Source: a virus. From it: 31,328 nt of DNA. The notes under the pieces are model-generated. The model did no database searches. It was not told the origin of the DNA and was given only the letters and a program-made list of their open reading frames with translations. The position numbers and the translations under genes were made by a program. Numbering within the stretch: position 1 is the stretch's first letter; each line of letters begins with the position of its first letter. Below are positions 13,589 to 14,903 of this stretch, one piece after another. The stretch is from IMG/VR virus record IMGVR_UViG_3300037294_000302, positions 1 through 31,328 of that record; one strand, 5' to 3'.

Positions 13589-13620
13589 TTTTAATTCCAT
13601 CGAATTCGATGGAATTAAAA
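13589..13620. repeat. 32-bp perfect palindrome
   Basis: Each 16-base half (TTTTAATTCCATCGAA) is the exact reverse complement of the other, centred on GAATTC at 13602-13607. There is no loop, so as DNA it is an ideal dimer-binding site or cruciform, and as RNA a near-loopless hairpin. It lies 21 bases before the tRNA-like sequence in the control region. A regulator operator, a terminator or a structural element are all possible. Confidence 0.6.
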
Positions 13621-13640
13621 ATAAGAGTTATTAAGCGGTA

Positions 13641-13702
13641 TTCGGGGTAGCTCAGTTGGTTAGAGCCTGTTGTTTGTCGCTGGTTCGAGTCCAGCCCCCG
13701 AA
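13641..13702 (+). tRNA. tRNA-like sequence lacking the anticodon arm
   Basis: The parts read in order: acceptor TTCGGGG (13641-13647), TA, D-stem GCTC (13650-13653), loop AGTTGGTTA, D-stem GAGC (13663-13666), only 12 bases (CTGTTGTTTGTC), T-stem GCTGG (13679-13683), loop TTCGAGT, T-stem CCAGC (13691-13695), acceptor CCCCGAA (13696-13702). Every stem except the anticodon stem pairs perfectly and the elbow-forming bases (GG in the D-loop, TTC in the T-loop) are kept. At 62 nt it is about a dozen bases short of a tRNA and has no anticodon. It is either a decayed phage tRNA or a tRNA-like element that keeps the body on purpose. Confidence 0.6.
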
Positions 13703-13746
13703 GCGACGTAATCGAAAAAAAGGATTTGTCCACCACACGGACTACG

Positions 13747-13782
13747 TAAATTAGGCGATTGGGGTATCAGTCGCCGAATTTA
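13747..13782 (+). other. Long imperfect hairpin downstream of the tRNA-like sequence
   Basis: TAAATT (13747-13752) pairs with AATTTA (13777-13782). After an A/G mismatch GGCGATT (13754-13760) pairs with AGTCGCC (13769-13775) with one G-U, closing an 8-base loop GGGGTATC. It belongs to the string of structures in the control region; no function can be assigned. Confidence 0.5.
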
Positions 13783-13789
13783 TTTCAAT

Positions 13790-13828
13790 TGCGAAAAGGT
13801 TTATATCGGTTCGACTCCGATACTCGCA
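13790..13828 (+). other. Acceptor/T-arm minihelix-like sequence
   Basis: A T-arm with canonical loop (ATCGG, TTCGACT, CCGAT at 13805-13821) is enclosed by TGCGA (13790-13794) and TCGCA (13824-13828). Only about ten bases stand where D and anticodon arms would be. This looks like a second, more reduced tRNA relic or a tRNA minihelix mimic, 88 bases after the first. Confidence 0.4.
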
Positions 13829-13978
13829 ACTCTGTTTTGATTGAATAGATTAATTTAATTACCCTGATTATGTCGGTGTATATTTTCAACCGAAAAAAGA
13901 TTTTTCCATATTTTGTTGTTTAGGGTAGAGTAATATCCCTGCTTCTGGCGGGGTATATTTTAACCTTCACAAAGACAT

Positions 13979-14036
13979 TCCGTTAGCTACTCCGTGTTTA
14001 TTCATTTGATTCTGAAAAAACTGAGTAGTTAACGGA
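13979..14036. repeat. Inverted repeat, 13 of 14 bases complementary
   Basis: TCCGTTAGCTACTC (13979-13992) and GAGTAGTTAACGGA (14023-14036) can pair with one mismatch around a 30-base loop. The same CGTTAG/CTAACG core recurs in the leader RNA at 14131-14137 and 14244-14250. Between 13830 and 13978 I see only shorter pairings, such as ATATCCC (about 13934-13940) with GGGGTATAT and a repeat of GTATATTTT. Confidence 0.45.
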
Positions 14037-14084: not shown

Positions 14085-14115
14085 TTTGATGCCAACGAAA
14101 TAAGTATTATCTTTG
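14085..14115 (+). promoter_or_regulatory. Consensus Bacteroidota promoter for the leader RNA and late operon
   Basis: TTTG (14085-14088), exactly 19 bases, then TATCTTTG (14108-14115), a full match to TTTG-N19-TAnnTTTG. The expected start, a few bases downstream (about 14120), coincides with the 5' edge of the folded leader. This is the best promoter match in the window. Confidence 0.72.
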
Positions 14116-14117
14116 TA

Positions 14118-14266
14118 GCGCTCAAAACAACTAACGGTCACAAAAGCCGTACTTCATTAGTCGGCATTTTTTATGCCTTCTTTTTTCTATACATCGTTAA
14201 AGCGGTGTCATTTTCGCTAATCGGATTGAATGCCGATATATGTCCGTTAGGATGTTTTGAGCAGCG
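14118..14266 (+). ncRNA. Structured leader RNA with possible attenuator
   Basis: A closing stem joins GCTCAAAACA (14120-14129) with TGTTTTGAGC (14253-14262), then CTAACGG (14131-14137) with CCGTTAG (14244-14250). Inside, GCCG (14146-14149) can pair with CGGC (14162-14165). GGCAT (14163-14167) can form a short hairpin with ATGCC (14173-14177), followed by TTCTTTTTTCT, which resembles a terminator. TCGGCAT (14161-14167) can instead pair with ATGCCGA (14230-14236), excluding that hairpin. The element starts at the predicted transcription start and ends about 50 bases before the Rha start. It may be a riboswitch-like attenuator, a protein-sensing leader or a stand-alone phage RNA. Confidence 0.6.
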
Positions 14267-14318
14267 TATCATGGCATCGCTTTTTTGTGCCTATCACTTT
14301 CATAACTGATAAATACAA

Positions 14319-14903
14319 ATGAAAGACTTAATTCAAAATTCTGAAAAAATGATGTCCAGTAAGCTAATCGCCGAAAGGACTGGAAAGTTACACACTAATG
14401 TGGTTCGTGATATTCGCAATATGATGGATGAATTAGATGAATCACATTTGAGTCATCTAAATTATCGTGAAACAAAGGACAACAGAGGGTACACCGCCGA
14501 AGTCTTCCTAAACGAACGCTTATCGCTTTGTCTTGCGTCGGGTTACTCTATCAAACTTCGAATGATGATAATCGACGACTGGGCAAGCATGAAGACACAA
14601 GCCCAACTTCCCCAAGACCCCATCATATTAATGCGGTTGCAACAAATCGAGTTCGATAGCCGATTAAAACAAGTTGAAGCAAGAATAACGACAAGGCCAG
14701 AATACTTCACAATTGCCAGGTATGGTTCGCTGAAAGGAATACAAGTTGGATTGAAACGAGCCGCTGAACTTGGTCGCAAAGCATCAAATATTTGCAAGGC
14801 GAACGGTTACGAAATGGACACAATCCCCGACCCCCGATTCGGACGGGTGAAACTCTACCCCATTAAGGTTTTAGATTTGCTTTTCAATACCAGTATAGCG
14901 TAA
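14319..14903 (+). CDS. rha: Rha-family phage regulatory protein
   Basis: A 194-aa protein whose first 90 residues match the Rha domain: MSSKLIAERTGKLHTNVVRD, later ETKDNRGYTAEVFLNERLSL and ASGYSIKLRMMIIDDW. A helical linker follows, then a C-terminal domain (YFTIARYGSLKGIQVGLKRA... DPRFGRVKLYPIKVLDLLF) of the type found in phage antirepressors. Rha proteins affect phage growth in some hosts and are thought to regulate transcription, though the mechanism is not settled. Here it heads the plus operon behind a folded leader, a position suited to a controlled regulator. A perfect hairpin follows its stop. Confidence 0.85.
   Translation: MKDLIQNSEKMMSSKLIAERTGKLHTNVVRDIRNMMDELDESHLSHLNYRETKDNRGYTAEVFLNERLSLCLASGYSIKLRMMIIDDWASMKTQAQLPQDPIILMRLQQIEFDSRLKQVEARITTRPEYFTIARYGSLKGIQVGLKRAAELGRKASNICKANGYEMDTIPDPRFGRVKLYPIKVLDLLFNTSIA

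Follow-up and report, generated by a model that had tools for sequence, protein, structure and literature searches.

The stretch of DNA analysed here (the window, 31,328 nt) is an IMG/VR virus record of a tailed phage. The host probably belongs to the Bacteroidota; the terminase shares 55% identity with its counterpart in Flavobacterium phage 11b. Replication genes constitute a leftward arm from about 13.1 kb. The rightward arm comprises a Phage_pRha-domain gene and ParB/methylase, terminase, portal, capsid and tape-measure genes. Both arms are separated by about 1 kb of noncoding DNA in which the leader described below is located, directly 5' of Rha. The Rha gene (14319-14903, + strand) codes for an antirepressor-type regulator of 194 aa (Pfam Phage_pRha, E 7e-10; PHROG anti-repressor, E 2e-14).

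Five related contigs were retrieved with Rha as a query. Two of them, L003 and L006, have the same promoter and leader directly 5' of Rha. Their leaders are 98% identical to each other and about 72% identical to that of the window. L002 and L004 carry a Rha that is 89-91% identical to the window Rha, and leader and promoter are gone by deletion. These deletions are distinct (L002:2980-3040 and L004:2975-3025) and have short end repeats (TTAATT; ATTCTGAAAAAA). In L002 the region after a tRNA-Met is fused to the Rha start, in L004 the region after two terminator-like hairpins. As both phages keep Rha, leader and promoter are dispensable for it.

The noncoding region upstream of the leader contains several other elements. 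At 13640-13704 we found a tRNA-like RNA with a D-arm, a T-arm and an acceptor stem but lacking a complete anticodon arm; it scored 44 bits with the Rfam tRNA model, and ARAGORN did not call it. Its acceptor stem in L006 is changed on both sides (TTCTGGG/CCCAGAA vs TTCGGGG/CCCCGAA), as is its T-stem (GTTGG/CCAAC vs GCTGG/CCAGC), and its middle is still shorter; therefore, the element looks maintained. A minihelix at 13789-13830, conserved in L003 and L006, has just two parts, a stem resembling an acceptor (TTGCGA/TCGCAA) and a T-arm (TATCGG-TTCGACT-CCGATA); a role as an RNase P-type processing signal is possible. The noncoding stretch between these two tRNA-like elements (13705-13790) is nearly invariant in five phages, has the hairpins GTCCACCACACGGAC and GGCGATTGGGGTATCAGTCGCC and may belong to a longer noncoding RNA. 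A complete tRNA-Met(CAU) is present in L002, L003, L004 and L006 (L003:1919-1992; L006:1702-1775). It is missing from the window at 13825-13845, apparently by deletion at a shared CGCAAC. An inverted repeat, CCGTTAGCTACTC...GAGTAGTTAACGG, spans 13976-14036; 12 nt of the left arm, present in the window and in L006, are absent in L003. Lastly, the window has a near-perfect AT-rich palindrome at 13592-13625, TTTTAATTCCATCGAATTCGATGGAATTAAAA, which is absent from four relatives.

A promoter of the Bacteroidota sigma-A type is located at 14085-14115 on the + strand. It consists of a -33 TTTG (14085-14088), a spacer of 19 nt and the -7 box TATCTTTG (14108-14115); the TTTG-N19-box arrangement is that given by the sequence-only reading. 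In Flavobacterium the TAnnTTTG box sits at -12 to -5 (PMC9723704), and the TTTG element at -33 is known from Bacteroides (PMC7366714). The published box position sets the predicted transcription start at 14120, and both elements are then found at their expected distances. TTTG-N17..21-TAnnTTTG occurs a single time in the 31 kb on both strands; with a first-order Markov null 0.25 exact N19 matches are expected per window. The promoter is kept in L003 and L006. There, a strong hairpin-plus-T-run stands 5' of it, hence Rha in these phages needs a promoter of its own. The distance from the predicted start to the Rha ATG is 199, 199 and 201 nt in the three phages.

The predicted start coincides with the first base of a long closing helix, P1, in the window as well as in L003 and L006, in line with the start proposed by the sequence-only reading. 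P1 closes a multibranch RNA domain of 143 nt (14120-14262, + strand). Its outer part pairs GCTCAAAACA (14120-14129) with TGTTTTGAGC (14253-14262), its inner part CTAACGG (14131-14137) with CCGTTAG (14244-14250). The minimum free energy of a 161-nt stretch was -48.7 kcal/mol (z = -4.0), and 0 of 200 shuffled sequences folded as well. Among 390 overlapping 160-nt segments of the + strand the lowest score was obtained for the one starting at 14161. The leader of L003 folded with z = -7.95.

The helices of the three phages were aligned by hand, helix by helix. Because L003 and L006 are 98% alike, this is effectively a sample of two independent sequences. In P1, nine pairs are unchanged, six carry compatible changes on both sides and none is broken. 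When the 3' arm of P1 was slid along, no shifted position gave more than 5 of 10 pairs in the window (10 in register) or more than 11 of 19 pairs in L003 (19 in register); hybrids of the 5' arm of one phage and the 3' arm of the other paired at 7 of 10 positions. Hairpin P2 (14135-14149; CGGT/GCCG, GGGT/ACCC in L003) shows two compatible changes, one on both sides and one on a single side; its formation competes with the innermost part of P1. The helix of P3 (14163-14177; GGCAT/ATGCC) is invariant in the three phages, the T-run after it is not conserved. P4 (14191-14208; ACATCGT/GCGGTGT) is confined to the window; L003 and L006 have a CTTCTA/TAGAAG hairpin in its place. P5 (14220-14237) is ATCGG/CCGAT in the window and UAAAGGG/CCCUUUA in L003 and L006, with two two-sided changes and, in the window, a pair probability of about 0.92; two outer pairs of L003 are unformed in the window. 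Downstream of the domain, P6 (14273-14291; GGCAT/GTGCC) has one one-sided change and a conserved loop, CGCTTTTYT. Covariation, named by the sequence-only reading as a check, was found for P1, P2 and P5 in effectively two independent sequences; the switch pairing discussed below is absent from L003 and L006. Altogether we consider the covariation evidence for the leader fold good but limited. Two resemblances were rejected: a hammerhead-like CTGATGA of L006 is missing from the window, and an integron attC-like reading of CTAACGG/CCGTTAG fails in L003, where the motif is missing.

Could the arms belong to a DNA-level element, e.g. an operator or a recombination or replication site, in which inverted repeats merely resemble an RNA fold? 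The arms are long inverted repeats, and the fold of the reverse strand likewise surpasses that of its shuffles (z -4.7). In addition, the halves of CTTTCAT...ATGAAAG at the Rha start are spaced by two turns, as is typical of dimer operators. However, several compatible changes, in P1 and P6, give G-U pairs on the + strand only, which points to an element that acts as RNA. Moreover, in L003 the z-score is -7.95 for the + strand and -4.92 for the - strand, and the fold begins exactly at the predicted transcription start. We regard a DNA element as improbable.

How widely is the leader distributed? A covariance model, R2, was built from L003 and L006 only. With the window thus excluded from the model, R2 detected the window leader with 70 bits (E 1.6e-15). 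It had no match in the other relatives. The leader had no match among 4227 Rfam families at the gathering score, and none of note at relaxed thresholds or by blastn in INPHARED. R2 found no copy in 792 Bacteroidota genomes (395 plus 397 from the same family as the Polaribacter MAG L125); filters were stricter in these large searches, and absence of copies is only as strong as the searches made. A pattern of the two P1 arms had 42 matches in IMG/VR, all by chance except L003 and L006. A pattern of the 3' edge, run on IMG/VR and GTDB genomes, and patterns of the promoter edge and of an AGCG/CGCT core likewise recovered L003 and L006 only; other matches were without the fold. Alignment searches for Rha relatives gave no additional loci in IMG/VR and none in GTDB genomes, and the portal protein was absent from 395 Bacteroidota genomes.

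The sequence-only reading had assigned a terminator/antiterminator choice to the leader: TCGGCAT (14161-14167) would either form a short terminator hairpin or pair with ATGCCGA (14230-14236) 63 bases away and so prevent the terminator. In the window the ingredients are present. The complementarity is a perfect 7 bp, extendable to 9 bp (GTCGGCATT/AATGCCGAT), and a T-rich stretch follows the short hairpin at 14163-14177 (TTCTTTTTTC). However, the predicted equilibrium probabilities are about 0.17 for the short hairpin and about 0.07 for the long-range pairing, i.e. both are minor, and this terminator hairpin has just 5 bp, three of them G-C. ATGCCGA pairs mainly with the local arm ATCGG (14220-14224; about 0.92), and long-range pairing would disrupt the covarying P5. 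L003 and L006 carry CCCTTT at the position of CCGAT in the window, which makes an alternative helix with the P3 arm impossible, and their best alternatives to the long helix are 7-pair matches elsewhere. Neither of them has a T-run following the GGCAT/ATGCC hairpin (ATATCACTTC). A terminator pattern scan flagged P3 and P4 in the window and P5 in L003, so the hairpins differ between the two phages. The antiterminator pairing has no counterpart in L003 and L006, and the leader had no match to a known aptamer class in Rfam. Sequence comparison and fold modelling together make riboswitch- or attenuator-like switching through TCGGCAT:ATGCCGA unlikely, and the particular choice between terminator hairpin and long helix appears highly improbable. 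From the original proposal we retain a promoter at the edge of a conserved folded leader before Rha; the terminator/antiterminator choice is not supported.

Alternatively, the domain could be a small RNA in its own right that shares only its position with Rha and is set free by processing or by termination near 14266-14290. Such an RNA could act in trans, e.g. by antisense pairing to the Rha start region as c4 of phage P1 does, or it could bind a protein. It would have its own promoter and a sealed 5' end, and 3' of the domain there is AGCG-N11-CGCTTTTTT, a weak but conserved terminator-like arrangement. Its AGCG/CGCT stem is, however, a weak 4 bp and was missed by the terminator scan. There is a precedent: the small RNAs c4 (P1/P7) and sar (P22) control phage antirepressor genes (PMC12197685). 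The likeness lies in this link of an RNA with an antirepressor gene; the leader has a larger closed multibranch fold and did not match the Rfam C4 covariance model even at a lax threshold. Ungapped counts were used for complementarity of the leader to the Rha start as RNAduplex is uninformative for long sequences. The 3' arm of P1 is complementary to the sequence immediately 5' of the Rha ATG over 11 bp in L006 and 9 bp in L003, whereas the window is at the level of shuffled sequences (3 vs 2.9). Because neither an Rfam family match nor a conserved antisense match was found, we do not file the leader with c4 and sar. The persistence of Rha in L002 and L004 without the element also speaks for a separate RNA. 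A small RNA stays in consideration since the leader is dispensable and since L003 and L006, though only these two, have 9-11 bp of complementarity between the P1 3' arm and the Rha start region; we regard it as a serious alternative, though a less probable one than a leader acting in cis.

Bacteroidota 6S RNA is another structured RNA of similar build. It is about 150-190 nt long, has its own promoter and a long end-to-end closing stem. In size, promoter and closing stem the leader is alike; it differs in that it has no Rfam 6S match and carries several inner side hairpins where 6S RNA has a single open bubble.

We favour an element that acts in cis, i.e. a 5'-sealed, structured leader of about 200 nt of the Rha mRNA, and would give this an even chance. 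Promoter and fold are conserved, the position before one gene and the spacing are kept, and the terminator scan detected no terminator-like site from the domain to the Rha ATG. In addition, the start codon of Rha is covered by a hairpin, P7 (14297-14325, + strand), in which CTTTCAT (14297-14303) pairs with ATGAAAG (14319-14325). A comparison of 29 start sites of the window found no longer pairing than these 7 bp. CACTTTCATAA, which is complementary to the start-codon region, is kept in the three phages and is invariant while the adjoining spacer differs. On account of the conserved promoter, fold and spacing, the lack of a terminator and the conserved start-codon complement, the leader may stabilise the Rha message and/or lower its translation. 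Perhaps it acts on translation via P7. P7 is weak (region z = +0.48) and could equally be an operator for a protein.

A cis-acting leader would work as follows. Transcription would start at 14120 from the sigma-A-type promoter and run on through P6 into Rha, which would yield a 199-nt leader. With its 5' end sealed, the message would be shielded from 5'-end-dependent decay, and the 7-bp hairpin over the AUG would hold basal translation of the antirepressor low. A transcription terminator/antiterminator switch would not be required. Known structured 5' leaders include stabilising 5' hairpins, RNA thermometers and translational riboswitches, in which the 5' end is sealed or the start codon occluded. 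The phage leader shares with them a stem at the very 5' end, a multibranch domain and a start-codon hairpin. It differs by being outside the known aptamer and thermometer families and by having been found in three phages only.

RNA control of antirepressors is already known from enterobacterial phages with c4 and sar. A bolder proposal is that the leader represents a novel class of regulatory RNA in Bacteroidota phages, in which a 5'-sealed multibranch leader responds to a signal from the host or the phage and sets production of the Rha antirepressor and, with it, the choice between lysis and lysogeny. This appears rather unlikely. Given the very narrow distribution and no known input, we rate the importance as moderate. 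Because the predicted start falls exactly on the first paired base in all three phages, the leader is easy to test. If true, it would be a structurally unrelated example of antirepressor control by RNA, and this in phages of the Bacteroidota, in which regulatory RNAs are little studied.
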